Under the pieces are notes generated by a model. The model was given only the letters and a program-made list of their open reading frames with translations. It ran no database searches and was not told the DNA's origin. 38,960 nucleotides of DNA from Magnetococcales bacterium. Its GTDB lineage: Bacteria; Pseudomonadota; Magnetococcia; Magnetococcales; UBA8363. Positions 14,522 through 24,281 of this stretch are shown here, in pieces. A program made the translations under genes and the position numbers. How positions within the stretch are numbered: the first letter of the stretch is position 1; every line of letters begins with the position of its first letter. The stretch lies in the NCBI GenBank assembly GCA_015232645.1, contig JADFZF010000007.1:1-38960 (forward strand). The letters run 5' to 3'.

Positions 14522-15733
14522 ATGGAAGACCTGCTTTTCTTATGCCACCGCATCCCCTATCCCCCCAACAAGGGAGACAAGGTACGATCGTATCATCTGT
14601 TGCGTTTTCTGAGCCGATATTACCGGGTTCACGTCGGGGCGTTCATCGACAACCCGACCGACTGGGACCATGCGAAAATCCTGCAGCAACTCTGCACCGG
14701 CGAAACCTACTGGGCAGGAATCCGTCCGAAAATGGCCAAATTACTGGCCCTCCGTGGTTTTTTGGGCTGCCAATCGCTGACCTATCATTATTATGCCCAT
14801 GGGGGTATGCAGCGGTGGGTCGATGGACTGATGGAACGATTGAAAATTCCCCGTATTCTGGTCTATTCCGCCGCCCCCAGCCGGTTCGTTCTAAAACCAT
14901 GGCCGCATCAGCCACGGCGAGTGATCGATTTTGTCGATGTGGATTCGGAAAAATGGTCCGCCTATGCCCAAGTCAGCCGCGGTTTCATGAACGCCGTTCA
15001 TGCGCGTGAGGCCAGAACCCTCCAGGCCTGGGAACGCACCATCGCCAGCCATTTTGACGCCTCGCTCTTTGTCAGCGCCGCCGAAGCGGAATTGTTTCAA
15101 CACCTGGCCCCAGAAGCGGCTGACCGGATCGGCTATTGGGAAAATGGGGTCGACAGCGTTTTTTTCAACCCCCAGGAAAGCTTTCCCAACCCCTACGGTC
15201 CCGGAGAGACGCTCGTCTTTACCGGAGCCATGGATTACCTGCCCAACGTACAAGGGATCATCTGGTTCGCCGAACGTATCTTCGGCATGATCAGACATAA
15301 ATCACCCTCCACCCGTTTGGCCATCGTCGGCGCCCGACCCCATGGATCCGTCAGACGCCTCGCCAAGCAGGAGGGGATCGAAGTGGTCGGAGCGGTGGAC
15401 GACATTCGACCTTATCTGGCCCATGCCCGGGTGGCGATCGCACCACTGACCATCGCCCGAGGCATTCAAAACAAAGTCCTCGAAGCCATGGCCATGGGAA
15501 AACCCGTCATCGCTACCCCTCACGCCATGGAAGGAATCCGCTACCAGACCCAACTCCACCACTGGGTCACCGACAAACCCGAACTGTTTGCCCATTATGC
15601 ACTCAAGCTGCTGGATCCCAAGGATGGCTTCAAACGGGCCCAGGACTATGGCCAGATCGGCAGAGACTTCGTCCTGGAAAATTATCAATGGGAAACCAAC
15701 CTGCATAAAGTGCTGGAAATTCTGGAAGCCTGA
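14522..15733 (+). CDS. Glycosyltransferase resembling the PEP-CTERM/XrtA-associated TIGR03087 family
   Basis: MEDLLFLCHRIPYPPNKGDKVRSYHLLRFLSRYYRVHVGAFID; VIDFVDVDSEKW; VFTGAMDYLPNVQGIIWFAERIF; C-terminal GT-B donor site. The ORF-track start at 14108 lies inside the AGCS gene and is rejected. Confidence 0.87.
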   Translation: MEDLLFLCHRIPYPPNKGDKVRSYHLLRFLSRYYRVHVGAFIDNPTDWDHAKILQQLCTGETYWAGIRPKMAKLLALRGFLGCQSLTYHYYAHGGMQRWVDGLMERLKIPRILVYSAAPSRFVLKPWPHQPRRVIDFVDVDSEKWSAYAQVSRGFMNAVHAREARTLQAWERTIASHFDASLFVSAAEAELFQHLAPEAADRIGYWENGVDSVFFNPQESFPNPYGPGETLVFTGAMDYLPNVQGIIWFAERIFGMIRHKSPSTRLAIVGARPHGSVRRLAKQEGIEVVGAVDDIRPYLAHARVAIAPLTIARGIQNKVLEAMAMGKPVIATPHAMEGIRYQTQLHHWVTDKPELFAHYALKLLDPKDGFKRAQDYGQIGRDFVLENYQWETNLHKVLEILEA

Positions 15734-15737
15734 GGAT

Positions 15738-16868
15738 ATGCGTATCGTCCATCTGCTCTACAGTCTGGATGTGGGTGGCCTGGAATCGGTGCTGGTTTCT
15801 CTGATCAATCACCTCCCCTGGGACCGTTTTGAGCATCATGTCATTGCCCTCACCCGTTGCGGCCAGTTGAAAAATCGCATCCAACGTTCCGACGTCCATT
15901 TTTATGATTTGGAAAAACAACACGGCAAGGATTGGTGGGTCTGGTTCAGATTATGGAAACTATTGCGGCAGATCAGGCCCGACCTGATCCATTCCTTCAA
16001 CATTGCCACCCTCGAAGGGGCTGTTTCTGCCTTTTTTGCCGGTCGCCCCGTGGTTGTCCATGCGGAACACGGACGTGACAGCTATGATCCCAAGGGAGAA
16101 AATCGGACCTACATCCTTTTGCGCCGAATACTCAATCCCTTGGTGGACACTTTCATATGCGTTTCCCGTGATCTCCATTCCTGGCTGCGGGAACGCGTTC
16201 ATATTCCCGAAAGGAAAATTCGTCTGATCGTCAATGGGATCGATACGCAGCATTTCGCTCCTGGAAGCAAAACTCTCCCTCCTCGCCCCGGTTTTGCCGA
16301 TGAAGCGCATTTTATTATCGGTACCGTCGGTCGGCTATGGCCGATCAAGGACCAGGCCAACCTGATTCGGGCCCTGGCGCTAATGGGCGAACGCGATCCG
16401 CTGGCCTTGAACCGTTCTCGGGTCGTATTGCTGGGAGATGGTCCGCAGCGACGGGAATTGGAACAACTGGCCCAAAACCTCGGAGTGTTCGACCAACTAT
16501 GGATCACCGGTTGGCGCGACGATGTGGCGCAATTGTTGCATTGTTTTGATCTGTTTGTACTGCCTTCCCAGGCGGAAGGGACACCGTTGACGATCCTCGA
16601 AGCCATGGCCAGCGGGCTGCCGGTGGTGGCAACCAACGTTGGCGGTGTGGCGGACGTGATTCAGGATGAAAAAACGGGAACTCTTGTGCCCCCCCAGGAT
16701 TCGGAAGCTCTGATGGAAGCAATCCTCCGTCACCTTCACAACCCGCACTGGTCACGGCAACTGGGTACAGCCGCAAGGCAACAGGTGCAGACCCGCCACT
16801 CGCTGACCGCCATGGTGGAAAGTTATCGTATTCTGTTCCTGAACCGTTTGTTACAAAAGACAGAATAG
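15738..16868 (+). CDS. Glycosyltransferase resembling the PEP-CTERM/XrtA-associated TIGR03088 family
   Basis: MRIVHLLYSLDVGGLESVLVSLINHLP; HAEHGRD; VNGIDTQHFAPG; GTVGRLWPIKDQ; EGTPLTILEAMASGLPVVATNVGGVADVI. Confidence 0.87.
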   Translation: MRIVHLLYSLDVGGLESVLVSLINHLPWDRFEHHVIALTRCGQLKNRIQRSDVHFYDLEKQHGKDWWVWFRLWKLLRQIRPDLIHSFNIATLEGAVSAFFAGRPVVVHAEHGRDSYDPKGENRTYILLRRILNPLVDTFICVSRDLHSWLRERVHIPERKIRLIVNGIDTQHFAPGSKTLPPRPGFADEAHFIIGTVGRLWPIKDQANLIRALALMGERDPLALNRSRVVLLGDGPQRRELEQLAQNLGVFDQLWITGWRDDVAQLLHCFDLFVLPSQAEGTPLTILEAMASGLPVVATNVGGVADVIQDEKTGTLVPPQDSEALMEAILRHLHNPHWSRQLGTAARQQVQTRHSLTAMVESYRILFLNRLLQKTE

Positions 16869-16977: not shown

Positions 16978-17475
16978 ATGGTTGACGGGCAGGATGATCC
17001 ATCGGTAGTCTCGGACTCGATCATAACGGGTGACGCCGCTCCAACGCCGGCTGCGACCTCCCCCCTTGATCCTAAGCTGGCACGCAGACGCCTCCTGCTC
17101 AAAAGCATCGCTGCAGGGGTTCCCGCCGTCATTACCTTGCAAAGTTCCCTATCTGCTTCCGCCGCCGCCACCTCCATGGCCAATTGTATTGCCCGTGACA
17201 ATATCCAGACGCTGACCAGTTATGGCGGTTCCCGTTGCATGAATTCCACAGCCGCCGGTACCAACAGTCTCAAAACCCTCGCCTACAATGACTCGCACTG
17301 GAGTGGCACGGGGCCTTGCACCGCCAGTCAATATGGGGTTGTTTATGTCGATGCTTCAGGTGTCGTCCCCACCACCGCCAATTACGGCGGCAACGGTACC
17401 CCCACTGCCGCCCCGGTTTCAGGGACCTCTGGGTATTACGCCATCACCAAATCCTGCTGGGGCTCTTTTCACTAG
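16978..17475 (+). CDS. Small secreted protein with Tat-like leader; candidate substrate of the adjacent PqqD/HprK/sulfotransferase genes
   Basis: ARRRLLLKSIAAGVPAVITLQSSLSASAA leader after an N-terminal extension; mature region rich in Ser/Thr/Gly/Ala with 4 Cys and repeated Tyr (SYGG, AYND, QYGV, VYVD, NYGG, GYY). AAGGA upstream of the ATG. Confidence 0.75.
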   Translation: MVDGQDDPSVVSDSIITGDAAPTPAATSPLDPKLARRRLLLKSIAAGVPAVITLQSSLSASAAATSMANCIARDNIQTLTSYGGSRCMNSTAAGTNSLKTLAYNDSHWSGTGPCTASQYGVVYVDASGVVPTTANYGGNGTPTAAPVSGTSGYYAITKSCWGSFH

Positions 17476-17568
17476 AGCCTGTTGACGGAAAGATTGACCT
17501 TTTCCCAGGCCCATCCCCTCAACCAAAGCGCAACCGTCTGAAAATTCAAATCAACCACTTGGTGGGAG

Positions 17569-17904
17569 ATGTCCATCCCCTTTCCTGCTCAACCCTCGAA
17601 CTCCGCCGACGACCTCCCTCCGCAACCCACACCGGGACGATGGCAACGACGTGCCGATCTGTCCTTTTCTTCCGTACCATTCGACGGTAGTTTCATTCTC
17701 TTCAATCCCAGATCGGGTCAGACCCATCTGGTCAATGAACTGGTCATGGATATCCTGGAAGCCTTGCTGCACCATCCCATGGATGGCAGGGAACTGGTCG
17801 CCAGCCTGAATCTGGAAGCGGACGAAAAGGAGGCTCTGCCGAAGATGGAACGAATCCTGAGCGAATTGGATCATTTGGGTCTGATTTTCCCGGTCGATCC
17901 GTGA
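17569..17904 (+). CDS. PqqD-like peptide chaperone (HPr-rel-A system type)
   Basis: FDGSFILFNPRSGQTHLVNELVMDILEALLHHPMDGRELVASLN... MERILSELDHLGLIFP: PqqD winged-helix pattern. Confidence 0.75.
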   Translation: MSIPFPAQPSNSADDLPPQPTPGRWQRRADLSFSSVPFDGSFILFNPRSGQTHLVNELVMDILEALLHHPMDGRELVASLNLEADEKEALPKMERILSELDHLGLIFPVDP

Positions 17905-18815
17905 ACATCGCTCAATTACCTGACAAAGATTTGCTCAGCCGCTTGCGGTCGGCCGGGCTCCGATGGCTGGTCGGTCCCTTCACGATCCACCTTCGTTCCC
18001 GTGTGCCCGAATTTCCGCGCTATCTGCGAACCTTTTATGCCGATAATCAGGTTTTGACGCCACCGTGGGAGGATATCGCCGATTTTCATGTCACCTTGCA
18101 CCCCTCCCTGGGATGGCGCCGTTATTGGCGGCCCAAGGTCCATTTCCGCCTGGATGGAAACTCTTTTTTCGCCCCTTTTCCTCTAAGTCATGCCCCGCCC
18201 ATGTTCGAGTGGGGCCTCAACATGGCCATCGCCTCCCGCTGTAATCAATATCTGCTGCTGCACGCCGCTGTTTTGGAAAAGGATGGATTCGCTCTGGTCA
18301 TGCCGGGCTCCCCCGGTTCGGGAAAAAGCACCTTGAGTGCCGCCTTGATGCTTCGAGGATTCCGTCTGCTTTCCGACGAATTTGGATTGTACTCCCCCGG
18401 GAAAAACCGTTTTGCAGCCAATCCACGTCCTGTTGGACTGAAAAACGAATCCATTGATGTCATTCGTATGTTTGCCCCCAAAGCGACCCTCAGCGAAGAA
18501 TATACCCAGACCAAAAAAGGGACAGTCAGTTTTTTACGGATTCCCGCCACGAATGTTCTTGAATCCCATCGTCAGGCCGAACCCCGATGGATCGTGTTTC
18601 CCATGTTCCAACGGGACGATCCCACCTATCTGGAAAAACTTCCTCGGGCGGATGGTTTTTTACGTCTGGCGGCCAATGCCTTCAATTATGAAACTTTGGG
18701 ACAGACTGGATTTGATGGCGTTACCGACATCATACGCAGGTCGCAGGTTTTGCAACTTCGCTTTGGTTCTTTGGAGGAGGCGGTGGGAAAGTTGGAAGCC
18801 TTGACTTCCACTTGA
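17901..18815 (+). CDS. HprK-related kinase A-type protein
   Basis: GTG start overlaps the PqqD stop (GTGA, 17901-17904); P-loop ALVMPGSPGSGKSTLSAALMLRGFRLLSDEFGLY; NPRPVGLKNESIDVI. Confidence 0.82.
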   Translation: MNIAQLPDKDLLSRLRSAGLRWLVGPFTIHLRSRVPEFPRYLRTFYADNQVLTPPWEDIADFHVTLHPSLGWRRYWRPKVHFRLDGNSFFAPFPLSHAPPMFEWGLNMAIASRCNQYLLLHAAVLEKDGFALVMPGSPGSGKSTLSAALMLRGFRLLSDEFGLYSPGKNRFAANPRPVGLKNESIDVIRMFAPKATLSEEYTQTKKGTVSFLRIPATNVLESHRQAEPRWIVFPMFQRDDPTYLEKLPRADGFLRLAANAFNYETLGQTGFDGVTDIIRRSQVLQLRFGSLEEAVGKLEALTST

Positions 18816-20512
18816 CCCGCTTGCCGACGGGGGAAATGAACGGCTTGGAAACCATTCCGGTGCTCGCTTCAGGTCGGGAAAAAATGTTTCTGGCTTTCAC
18901 CCGGCCGCTGATGGCCGCATTGAGACTGATCATCGCCATTTTTCCCAACCATTGCCCGGCCTGGTATTTTTTCGGCCACCTGCTGCAGCGGAGCCAAAGA
19001 AACGCCGAAGCGGTAACGAGTTTGAACAAGGCCTTGGAGAAAGGATGCCGCAAAGCGACGGTTTATGCACTCCTGGCCAAGGCCTATGCCCAGTCGCAGC
19101 GGCACATGGCGGCGGAAACTTCCATGCGCCAGGCCCTGGAACTGCAACCCGACAATCCAACCTGGTGGTTGGAGCTGGGAGTCATCTTGACGTGGCGCCG
19201 TCATCGCAATCACGCTCTGCAGGCGTTCATGAAGGCGGTCGAAATCAAACCCGATTTGGTGGCGGCCTGGCATCATCTGTCTCTGTTGCACCTGGAGGCC
19301 CCCTTTTTCGAGGCCGCGTTGGCGGAAGATTTCAGCCGCCGGGCCTTGGGCATCGATCCCGATCATCCGGGCTGCCTGTCCTGCCGCGCCTATGCCCTGG
19401 AGTTATTGGGCCGACTGGATGAGGCGGCGGTGCTGCACCAACGCATTCTGGCCCGTTTTCCAAATGACGCCAATGCTTTGGAAGGCCTGACCGCCATGGA
19501 CCGCCTCCCCGATGGCTTCGGGAAGGAAGGTGTCCCCGGTAGCGCGGGTGCCCATCCCATGGAGTTGGCAAAAATACATTTCATCATGGCAAAGATCGAT
19601 TTGAAAAACAATAATATTGACCAATCCTTTACCGGGTATCGACTGGGTAACCAGCTTGTACGGCAAACCTATTTTTATTCCATCGACCAGGATGCCCTGG
19701 AGGGACAGCGCATTCGAACGGTATTTGATCCTGCCTTTTTTTCCGTTCGCAACGGATGGGGCGACCCATCCGCCAAACCCATTTTCATCGTTGGCATGCC
19801 CCGCTCCGGCACCACTCTGGTGGAACAGGTGCTGGCCAGTCACCCCTCTTGTCACGGTGGTGGAGAACGTTTCGAAATTCATGAGTTGGTCAATTCCATG
19901 GGTATTTTTTCTCAAACCTATCGAGGCTTTCCAGAAGCGGCCCGGGAACTGGGACCGGAAGATACCCGGACCTTGGGACAGAGTTATGTCCAATCCCTGA
20001 CACTGTCTCGTCCCGACGCCGACAAAATCACCGACAAGCTGCCACATAATTTCATGTATATTGGACTGATTCACTTGCTCTTGCCACGAGCCACCATCAT
20101 CCATTGTCAACGTCACCCCATGGATACCTGTTTGAGTTGCTATCAGCACCTGTTTGCCGGCAGCCATCCCTACGCCTACGACCTGGAGGAGTTGGGACGG
20201 TATTATCGTATCTACGACCACCTGATGCAGCATTGGCGCGAAACCTTGCCCGAACGGATGTTGGAAATCAAATATGAGGAAATCATCCATCGTCCGGAAG
20301 AAATGATCGATCGCATACTGAAGCACTGCGGGTTGCCTTGGGATGATCGCTGTATTAACTTCCATAAGACCGAACGCCAAGTGGAAACCGCCAGCCATAT
20401 TGAAGTTCGGCGACCCCTGTATCGGACATCGGCAGGACGTTGGAAGGTTTTCGAGCCCTATTTACAGCCATTGCGCCGCGCTTTGGGAGATGTGCTTGAT
20501 CGTTGGGATTAA
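18812..20512 (+). CDS. TPR-repeat sulfotransferase family protein
   Basis: N-terminal TPR-like repeats (AVTSLNKALEKGCRKATVYALLAKAYAQ, AETSMRQALELQPDNPTWWLELGVIL); PAPS-loop PIFIVGMPRSGTTLVEQVLASHP; IHCQRHPMDTCLSCYQ. Start uncertain (TTG 18812 or ATG 18836). Confidence 0.88.
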   Translation: MTRLPTGEMNGLETIPVLASGREKMFLAFTRPLMAALRLIIAIFPNHCPAWYFFGHLLQRSQRNAEAVTSLNKALEKGCRKATVYALLAKAYAQSQRHMAAETSMRQALELQPDNPTWWLELGVILTWRRHRNHALQAFMKAVEIKPDLVAAWHHLSLLHLEAPFFEAALAEDFSRRALGIDPDHPGCLSCRAYALELLGRLDEAAVLHQRILARFPNDANALEGLTAMDRLPDGFGKEGVPGSAGAHPMELAKIHFIMAKIDLKNNNIDQSFTGYRLGNQLVRQTYFYSIDQDALEGQRIRTVFDPAFFSVRNGWGDPSAKPIFIVGMPRSGTTLVEQVLASHPSCHGGGERFEIHELVNSMGIFSQTYRGFPEAARELGPEDTRTLGQSYVQSLTLSRPDADKITDKLPHNFMYIGLIHLLLPRATIIHCQRHPMDTCLSCYQHLFAGSHPYAYDLEELGRYYRIYDHLMQHWRETLPERMLEIKYEEIIHRPEEMIDRILKHCGLPWDDRCINFHKTERQVETASHIEVRRPLYRTSAGRWKVFEPYLQPLRRALGDVLDRWD

Positions 20513-21683: not shown

Positions 21684-22571
21684 ATGGCCATGTTTAAAGG
21701 GGTTTATACCGCCCTGATCACACCTTTCAACAAGGGTGGCATTGACTGGGATGCGCTGGGACGGTTGCTTGACATTCAGATCGATGCCGGGATCGCCGGA
21801 GTCGTCCCCTGTGGTACCACCGGCGAGGCGGCCACCTTGAGCCACGAGGAACATCGCCAAGTTGTCCGTTATTGTGTCGATCGGGTTCAAAAACGTATCC
21901 AGGTGGTGGCTGGCACCGGCTCCAATGCCACTCAGGAATCCATTGACCTGACCCGTTATGCCCGCGACGCCGGCGCCGATGGCGCGCTCATCATCACACC
22001 CTACTACAACAAACCGGGTCAGGAGGGGCTGTTTCAGCATTACTCCCGCATTGCCGAATCGGTCGATCTTCCCATCATCCTCTACAACGTCCCCGGTCGT
22101 ACCGCCGTCGATATGACCCCCGATACCGTCCTCCGTTTGTCCCGGATCAAAGGAATCGTCGCCATCAAGGAAGCGACTGGAAATATGGAACGGGCTGCGG
22201 TCATTCACCATCGTTGTGGCGAGGCCATGACCTTGCTCTCCGGAGACGATGCCACCTTTCTCCCTTTTCTGGCCGTCGGCGGCCAAGGAATCATCTCCGT
22301 GACCGCCAATATCGCCCCCCGCCACATGGTCGGAGTTTGGAAGGCTTGGCAGCAGAGGGATATTTCCCTCGCCATCAGCAGGCATGAGCAGCTCCTGGAC
22401 CTTAATCGAATCCTCTTCTGCGAAACCAACCCCATTCCGGTCAAGGCCGCCGCTGCCATGCTCGGCATGTGCTCCGATGACATTCGTCTGCCTCTGACCC
22501 CTCTGGGCAAAGATAACCAAACCTTGGTACGCGACGTCATCAAGGCCATGGGGTTGTTTGGATCGGTTTAA
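21684..22571 (+). CDS. dapA: 4-hydroxy-tetrahydrodipicolinate synthase
   Basis: MFKGVYTALITPFNKGGIDWDAL; CGTTGEAATLSHEEH; ITPYYNKPGQEGLFQHY; VAIKEATGN Schiff-base lysine. Confidence 0.95.
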   Translation: MAMFKGVYTALITPFNKGGIDWDALGRLLDIQIDAGIAGVVPCGTTGEAATLSHEEHRQVVRYCVDRVQKRIQVVAGTGSNATQESIDLTRYARDAGADGALIITPYYNKPGQEGLFQHYSRIAESVDLPIILYNVPGRTAVDMTPDTVLRLSRIKGIVAIKEATGNMERAAVIHHRCGEAMTLLSGDDATFLPFLAVGGQGIISVTANIAPRHMVGVWKAWQQRDISLAISRHEQLLDLNRILFCETNPIPVKAAAAMLGMCSDDIRLPLTPLGKDNQTLVRDVIKAMGLFGSV

Positions 22572-22597
22572 AATTTTTTGGGGAAACTCTCAGGTCT

Positions 22598-22684
22598 CTG
22601 TTTGTTACCCAGGTGGAGAAACATGGGCCCAAGGCTCTGGGCGAATCCCGACGGGGGATTTTTTCCTGGGTTACCTAAAAACAG
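22598..22684 (+). other. Predicted structured RNA / terminator region between dapA and a cytochrome c gene
   Basis: Outer pairings CTGTTT(22598)/AAACAG(22684) and ACCCAGG(22607)/CCTGGGT(22671) enclose hairpins GCCCA/TGGGC (22627-22642) and AATCCC/GGGATT (22644-22660); the latter is followed by a T run. Confidence 0.45.
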
Positions 22685-22752
22685 TTGCAAATGACGTTGG
22701 GTTGGTGTTAATAGTTCGGTTTCGTATCCCCATCTCTAACCAAGGTGAAATC

Positions 22753-23163
22753 ATGAAGAAAACAGCGCTTTTCCTGTCCGCAGCCTTTCTGACAGTCTCC
22801 ATCGTCGGGTCCAGTGCCTGGGCCGCTGGCGATGCCGAGAAGGGCAAAAAAGTGGCCGAGCAAAAATGCACCACCTGCCATACCTTCGGTAAAGCGATTG
22901 CCAAGGCTGGCAAAGTTGGACCCACCCTGGAGAATGGTATCGTAGGTAAGCCCGCTGGAAAGGTTCAAGGTTTCTCCTACTCTCCCGGCCTACAAAAAAT
23001 GTCTGAAGGGGGCTTGACCTGGACAGAAGAAAATCTCGACAAATTCCTGACCAACCCCAAGGGTTTCATCCAGGGAACCAAAATGATGGCCTTCCCCGGT
23101 TTGCCCGCCGAGGGAGAACGCGCTGATGTCATCGCCTTTCTGAAGACACTCCCGGTTCCTTGA
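22753..23163 (+). CDS. Exported monohaem c-type cytochrome (cytochrome c2-like)
   Basis: MKKTALFLSAAFLTVSIVGSSAWA signal; CTTCH haem motif; GIVGKPAG... FSYSPGLQKM... GTKMMAFPGLP. Confidence 0.93.
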   Translation: MKKTALFLSAAFLTVSIVGSSAWAAGDAEKGKKVAEQKCTTCHTFGKAIAKAGKVGPTLENGIVGKPAGKVQGFSYSPGLQKMSEGGLTWTEENLDKFLTNPKGFIQGTKMMAFPGLPAEGERADVIAFLKTLPVP

Positions 23164-23426: not shown

Positions 23427-24281
23427 ATGAGGATGACTGGCAACAAGGATTTTGTCGCTGTGCTGATGACGGTGGTTGGTGTTCTTATTTTTGTTGGTTT
23501 TTTTTTAATCTTCGGTGATGAATCACGACATGGTTCAGACTCCTCTTCGACCACTGTTCCTTCAAGCCCGGTAGACAAGGGGAGACGCCTGGCCAGGGAT
23601 TGCACCCCCTGCCACGATATGACCAGTTCCCACAGGTTGACCCAGGCTGGGCCGCCGCTGTGGGGAATCGTCGGGCGACGGGCCGCCTCCATGCCTGGAT
23701 ACAAATATTCTCAGGCCCACATGAAGGCGGGCCAGGGGGGGCTGGTTTGGGATGAATCGTCTCTCGACCGCTATTTGGACAACCCCAAGGAATTCATTCC
23801 CGGCAACAAGATGGCTTTCGCCGGATTGCATGGTGCCGAAGAACGCAAAGCGGTGATTGAATATTTAAAAACCTTGCAGGATAATAATGAGGGTCGCATT
23901 TCTCCTTTGATCGGCCAGGCCATTCTTTCATTATCGGCAGCCGAGGATGGCTTCAGTTCCGAGGAACGCATCAAGCGGGGACGAATCGAAGCGGAAAAAT
24001 GTGGTGCCTGTCACGATTTGGGACCGACGCGCAAAAATATCGTTGGTCCCTGGCTGCTGGGGGTTGTTGGGCGACCCGTGGGAACTGTCGTAGGCTATGA
24101 CTTTTCCCCCGCTTTCAAAGAGGCCGTCAAACTGGGACTGAAAACATGGACCACCAAAAATCTGGATCAATTCCTCGCCCATCCCAATGCCATCATTCCG
24201 GGGACCCGAATGGTTTTTGCCGGTATCGAGGATGAACAACGCCGACGGGATTTGATCATTTATCTTCGTACGTTGAAGTGA
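23427..24281 (+). CDS. Membrane-anchored dihaem c-type cytochrome with two c2-like domains
   Basis: N-terminal TM FVAVLMTVVGVLIFVGFFLIF; CTPCHDM and CGACHDL haem motifs; both domains carry GxVGR... F/KYSxA... IPGxxMxFAG. Confidence 0.88.
   Translation: MRMTGNKDFVAVLMTVVGVLIFVGFFLIFGDESRHGSDSSSTTVPSSPVDKGRRLARDCTPCHDMTSSHRLTQAGPPLWGIVGRRAASMPGYKYSQAHMKAGQGGLVWDESSLDRYLDNPKEFIPGNKMAFAGLHGAEERKAVIEYLKTLQDNNEGRISPLIGQAILSLSAAEDGFSSEERIKRGRIEAEKCGACHDLGPTRKNIVGPWLLGVVGRPVGTVVGYDFSPAFKEAVKLGLKTWTTKNLDQFLAHPNAIIPGTRMVFAGIEDEQRRRDLIIYLRTLK

Follow-up and report, generated by a model that had tools for sequence, protein, structure and literature searches.

A small exported protein as the probable substrate of an HPr-rel-A kinase module in Magnetococcales

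Gene content of the locus

The window, a 38,960-nucleotide stretch of contig JADFZF010000007.1 from a Magnetococcales bacterium, carries a candidate protein-modification locus at positions 16978–20512. The genome is a 3.39-Mb draft that is 74% complete. Four genes encode a small secreted protein, a PqqD-family peptide chaperone, an HprK-related kinase and a sulfotransferase fused to tetratricopeptide repeats (TPRs). All four open reading frames (ORFs) were found on the forward strand, co-oriented as described in a first-pass annotation of this DNA. The first of them (16978–17475) encodes, again as described, a 165-residue protein with a leader like those of the twin-arginine translocation (Tat) pathway. 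This protein is conserved beside the PqqD and kinase genes and is proposed here as the substrate of the kinase.

The second gene (17569–17904, forward strand) encodes the PqqD-family chaperone, a protein of 111 residues that matches TIGR04353 with 56.3 bits (cut-off 35). The third (17901–18815, forward strand) encodes the kinase, which has 304 residues and matches the model for HprK-related kinase A, TIGR04352, with 345.3 bits (cut-off 200). The two genes share a GTGA overlap, as had been noted, with the PqqD stop codon TGA at 17902–17904 and the GTG start of the kinase at 17901. With both curated cut-offs exceeded and the genes overlapping, the pair belongs by NCBIfam naming to the HPr-rel-A system, in agreement with the name previously put forward for it. 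The system is named but uncharacterised: many proteobacterial genomes have annotated HPr-rel-A kinases, for which we know of no substrate. As already named computationally, it comprises the kinase and PqqD only; what is new here is a family of proposed substrates, its motifs and a constant nucleotidyltransferase partner. The HPr-rel-A names were not in use in the literature searched, and the small proteins may have been noticed in papers or databases beyond it.

The fourth gene (18812–20512, forward strand) encodes a sulfotransferase of 566 residues (Sulfotransfer_3, E = 2e-49, plus TPRs). A TTGA overlap with the kinase gene had been suggested as possible. The TTG at 18812 could indeed serve as a start, but homologues do not support it and the in-frame ATG at 18836 is equally plausible. 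A promoter and terminator scan returned nothing exceeding the shuffled expectation.

Invariant in the kinase are a His (18261–18263), the P-loop GSPGSGKST (18306–18332) and an Asp-Glu pair (18375–18380). Profile alignment with HprK structures showed that the His, the P-loop Lys and the first catalytic Asp are conserved, while the second Asp is a Glu in this kinase. The predicted model has a high confidence (predicted local distance difference test, pLDDT, 94.6) and a fold that matches those of PEPCK and HprK. Judged from sequence and model together, the kinase is likely to be catalytically active. Assignment as a canonical HprK was rejected, as the score against TIGR00679 (16.3 bits) is far below the cut-off of 240. 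HprK-like proteins are likewise found in small cassettes as ScmC of the SynChlorMet cassette and as HprK-related kinase B. Both identities were rejected, with scores of 16 and 23 bits far below the cut-offs of 125 and 200, respectively.

Conservation of the small protein beside PqqD and the kinase

The first-pass annotation had proposed the small protein as the substrate and its retention beside the PqqD and kinase genes of relatives as a check. Such retention was observed throughout the class Magnetococcia and among beta- and gammaproteobacteria. A search of 60 relatives for TIGR04352 and the small protein was followed by one of the whole class Magnetococcia (48 genomes) with an alignment of the small protein. 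Kinase and small protein occurred together in 35 of these genomes and were both absent from 12. No genome had the small protein alone, and the single genome with the kinase alone (G047) has that gene cut by a contig end. Fisher's test of this co-occurrence gave p = 2e-10 by genome and p = 0.0015 by genus (14 vs 3), the latter figure being the fairer because genomes are not independent. The order small protein–PqqD–kinase is contiguous in 30 Magnetococcia genomes. The small gene and PqqD are paired apart from the kinase in G008, in G020 and in a second copy in G017, and in G043 the two together run opposite to the kinase.

A scan of the kinase alignment against 84,980 species genomes gave 294 relatives. 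Among the best 80 of these 294, which were read, 55 are from outside Magnetococcales (Thioalkalivibrio, Methylococcaceae, Chromatiaceae, Massilia, Duganella and others). In many of the non-Magnetococcal loci, a hidden Markov model (HMM) built from the Magnetococcal small protein picked up relatives immediately upstream of the PqqD gene. Where there was room upstream, a twin-arginine secreted ORF was found just before PqqD in 49 of 51 loci. Forty-six were recognized by a regular expression, a simple test for a twin arginine plus a hydrophobic stretch, and three by the HMM, which matched three of the five loci negative by regular expression. Of 2808 control ORFs from other parts of these loci, 127 passed the twin-arginine test; as several ORFs were tried per locus, the per-locus chance is above 4.5%, and far below 90%.

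Conserved next to PqqD and the kinase, and absent together with the kinase in Magnetococcia, the small protein shows the behavior expected of a substrate. Its status as a substrate is strongly indicated, and modification by this kinase, prior to export, is probable.

Leader and C-terminal motif of the small protein

No Pfam or NCBIfam model matched the small protein above threshold, and a PEP-CTERM signal is not present. In the alignment of the Magnetococcales proteins, R37, R38, K42, P49, T53, C70, C87, C160, W161 and S163 are invariant. The twin-arginine leader, RRRLLLKSIAAGVPAVITLQSSLSASA (17083–17172, forward strand), contains RRRLLLK followed by a hydrophobic stretch with a conserved P and T, and A-x-A; TatC is encoded in the genome. 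The conserved stretch of the leader reads RRRxLLK...P..TLxSGAA, and the motif P..TLxSG is found in 50 of 67 proteins compared with one of 131 control twin-arginine ORFs, a count biased upward in that some of these proteins were detected by an HMM that contains the leader. Unlike that of an ordinary export signal, the hydrophobic part of this leader shows sequence conservation, and it is the natural candidate for PqqD binding. The leader may be both a PqqD-binding site and an export signal.

The protein ends in the motif SCWGSF (residues 159–164; 17452–17469, forward strand), of which S163 is the invariant Ser. The general form [ST]CxxS[FILMVA] occurs in 33 of 33 Magnetococcal proteins and in 22 of 34 others, 55 of 67 in all, against 0.4% in shuffles, a count that, like that for the leader motif, is partly biased, the proteins having been found by similarity or by an HMM that includes the leader. 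The motif Ser lies 1–16 residues before the C-terminus. The last Ser is kept in several variants from which the Cys or the initial Ser has gone (SSGASI, SAGTSI and ACWGSV). As this residue outlives the loss of the other two, the Ser rather than the Cys is pointed to, and it is likely to be the modification site.

A natural miniature of the protein is encoded in G046 (L092, 6094–6423). It consists of the leader and about 20 residues including ASCLDSF, and is directly followed by PqqD.

Nucleotidyltransferase and XrtA-type neighbors

A nucleotidyltransferase of family PF14907, overlooked in the first-pass annotation, is a core partner of the module. Outside Magnetococcales, it was detected by HMM within 5 kb of the kinase in all 53 testable loci, namely those whose contig extends far enough, and lies immediately downstream in 39 of them. 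All 36 kinase-bearing Magnetococcia genomes encode it. In the window's genome, the nucleotidyltransferase and an XrtA amidotransferase (TIGR03108) are on another contig, C58. The two are also unlinked from the kinase in several members of the genus, and are linked to it in G003, G004 and G007. On C58 the nucleotidyltransferase and amidotransferase genes overlap each other (L213:1105–4126).

Two glycosyltransferase genes of the PEP-CTERM/XrtA system precede the small-protein gene on the forward strand. The first (14531–15733) matches TIGR03087 at 14531–15730 with 489 bits (cut-off 316.65), and the second (15738–16868) matches TIGR03088 with 469 bits (cut-off 409.05); TIGR03108 is also above its cut-off in this genome. 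XrtA-type glycosyltransferase genes travel with the module in Magnetococcales, and TIGR03087 is adjacent in most relatives. Exosortase (PF09721) was found neither in the window's genome nor in any of eight genomes of the genus. The small protein was rejected as an exosortase substrate, since PEP-CTERM is absent from it and exosortase was not found in the genus. The XrtA-type glycosyltransferases and amidotransferase are retained genus-wide although no exosortase was found in the eight genomes. No paper joining exosortase with PqqD was met in the literature searched.

These neighbors bear on an alternative in which the small protein is a client of PqqD only. PqqD would merely escort the Tat precursor, the kinase would act on a regulator or on an exopolysaccharide intermediate (sugar or lipid), and the genes would share a locus because all serve exopolysaccharide. 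The small protein and PqqD do form a tighter pair than their link to the kinase, genomes without the module also lack the XrtA glycosyltransferase and the nucleotidyltransferase, and relatives with the HprK fold are generally known to have varied substrates. Nevertheless, the Magnetococcia kinase never occurs without the small protein, save at one contig end. Outside Magnetococcales, moreover, the amidotransferase is present in five of 55 loci and glycosyltransferases are often absent, whereas the set of small protein, PqqD, kinase and nucleotidyltransferase stays. The precise C-terminal Ser motif also fits the known chemistry of HprK-like peptide kinases. Action of the kinase elsewhere is considered unlikely, and its action on the small protein is the preferred reading.

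Comparison with lasso peptide systems

The HprK homologs PadeK, ThcoK and PsmK phosphorylate the C-terminal Ser of lasso precursors, the nucleotidyltransferase PsmN adds hexoses to the phosphate of the lasso phospho-Ser, and the PqqD-like protein B1 binds the leader (PMC9266682; PMC8498205). Sulfotransferase genes are present in some lasso clusters (PMC8498205). With these phosphorylated or phosphoglycosylated lasso systems (paeninodin with PadeK, ThcoK, and pseudomycoidin with PsmK and PsmN) the module shares a PqqD-type chaperone, an HprK-like kinase, a nucleotidyltransferase, an occasional sulfotransferase and a precursor carrying Ser at, or close to, its C-terminus. Given the same enzyme set and the conserved Ser motif at the end of the proposed substrate, phosphorylation of the C-terminal Ser is the best-supported chemistry. 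The module differs in having neither the B2 protease nor a lasso cyclase, and in that its proposed substrate is an exported protein with a twin-arginine leader, whereas that of the lasso enzymes is a short threaded peptide.

The locus might instead be a cluster for a lasso peptide or another ribosomally synthesized and post-translationally modified peptide, yielding a small secreted natural product, as PqqD, an HprK-like kinase, a nucleotidyltransferase, an AsnB-like protein and a sulfotransferase also occur in lasso clusters. However, the B2 leader protease (Transglut_core3, PF13471) was found neither in this genome (74% complete) nor in seven other genomes of the genus, and it is absent from nearly all kinase-bearing Magnetococcia. 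No lasso cyclase (NF033535) was found at the window locus. The AsnB-like partner on C58 reaches only 226 bits against the NF033535 cut-off of 525, and is identified as the amidotransferase TIGR03108 with 873 bits. In addition, the precursor has a twin-arginine leader and a mature part of about 100 residues bearing conserved Cys. The lack of a B2 protease and of a lasso cyclase led to rejection of a lasso peptide cluster, and a natural product of either kind is highly improbable. Weak kinase matches do lie beside Transglut_core3 genes at G048:C93, G060:C21 and G017:C406, loci that resemble lasso clusters.

Several points weigh against phosphorylation of the small protein at its C-terminal Ser, in addition to the partial bias of the leader and motif counts. 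The kinases of the PadeK type act on the C-terminal residue itself, and here further residues follow the Ser. The second Asp of the lasso kinases is the residue replaced by Glu. The structure of the small protein is poorly predicted (AlphaFold pLDDT 61). Moreover, the secreted proteins of Oxalobacteraceae and Thioalkalivibrio are without the CxxS motif (with C-termini such as YLSGTMD), so that the site is not universal unless Thr substitutes for Ser. These proteins belong to other classes, in which a near-terminal Thr-hydrophobic pair might be the equivalent site.

Sulfotransferase

The sulfotransferase had been counted as a component of the cassette, a place that the gene neighborhoods do not bear out. 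It is absent beside most relatives of the system, and linkage is confined to the window's genus and a few further Magnetococcales, namely some members of families f9 and f13. A role as a core member was rejected on this basis; the restriction to these lineages marks the gene as an accessory, lineage-specific addition. The nearest structures by sequence are protein-tyrosine sulfotransferases, a similarity of the domain that is shared with RaxST/RaxX and TPST. Unlike those, the present enzyme is fused to TPRs, and it is not a conserved companion of the system. An aromatic-Tyr pair stands just before SCW in all 12 proteins linked to the sulfotransferase and in seven of the 21 that are not; this association is confounded by descent and is regarded as a lead. 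An APS kinase is encoded in the window's genome.

Sulfation by this enzyme could be imagined as the main modification of the small protein: in the window its gene lies next to the others and may be translationally coupled, and the structural relatives, the Tyr pair and the APS kinase speak for this reading. However, most relatives of the system lack the gene beside them, the Tyr pair is also seen where there is no sulfotransferase, and the groups compared are not independent by descent. TPR-sulfotransferases are in general common and may act on glycans. Sulfation as the main modification is very unlikely.

Proposed mechanism

The locus is probably the local version of a widespread HPr-rel-A protein-modification module that has the small exported protein as its substrate, a reading held with moderate confidence. 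The precursor would be synthesized with the conserved twin-arginine leader. PqqD would bind this leader, probably at RRRxLLK...P..TLxSGAA, and deliver the precursor to the kinase, which is predicted to phosphorylate the near-C-terminal Ser in [ST]-C-[W/L/Y/M]-x-S-[F/L/V/I/M/A]. By analogy with the hexose-adding PsmN, the PF14907 nucleotidyltransferase may modify the phospho-Ser further. In the window's genus, the sulfotransferase might modify the protein additionally, perhaps at the Tyr pair that directly precedes the motif. The modified protein would be exported, probably by Tat, and would function on the cell surface together with an exopolysaccharide of the XrtA type, the glycosyltransferase genes for which are found at this locus.

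Gene position, the pattern of presence and absence, and a terminal Ser motif all tie one unannotated protein family to the HPr-rel-A kinases. If the proposed mechanism is correct, the tailoring chemistry of lasso peptides, with a C-terminal phospho-Ser and then a sugar, is also applied to ordinary exported proteins, and PqqD acts on a Tat-type leader, possibly at an interface between protein and exopolysaccharide. In an extended version, which we regard as distinctly doubtful, the sugar placed by the PF14907 enzyme on the C-terminal phospho-Ser would be extended by the XrtA-type glycosyltransferases or joined to exopolysaccharide. Such a phosphoserine-linked glycan would represent a new coupling of a secreted protein to a polysaccharide via a C-terminal phosphodiester.

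Other observations

About 20 loci, mostly of beta- and gammaproteobacteria, have a gene for a trypsin/HtrA-like protease (PF13365) located about 2.5 kb upstream of the kinase gene (for example L131:5348–6157). This protease could process the exported protein. Elsewhere in the window, positions 23427–24281 encode a protein with two tandem c-type cytochrome-like domains, and a single-domain homolog adjoins it at 22558–23163.

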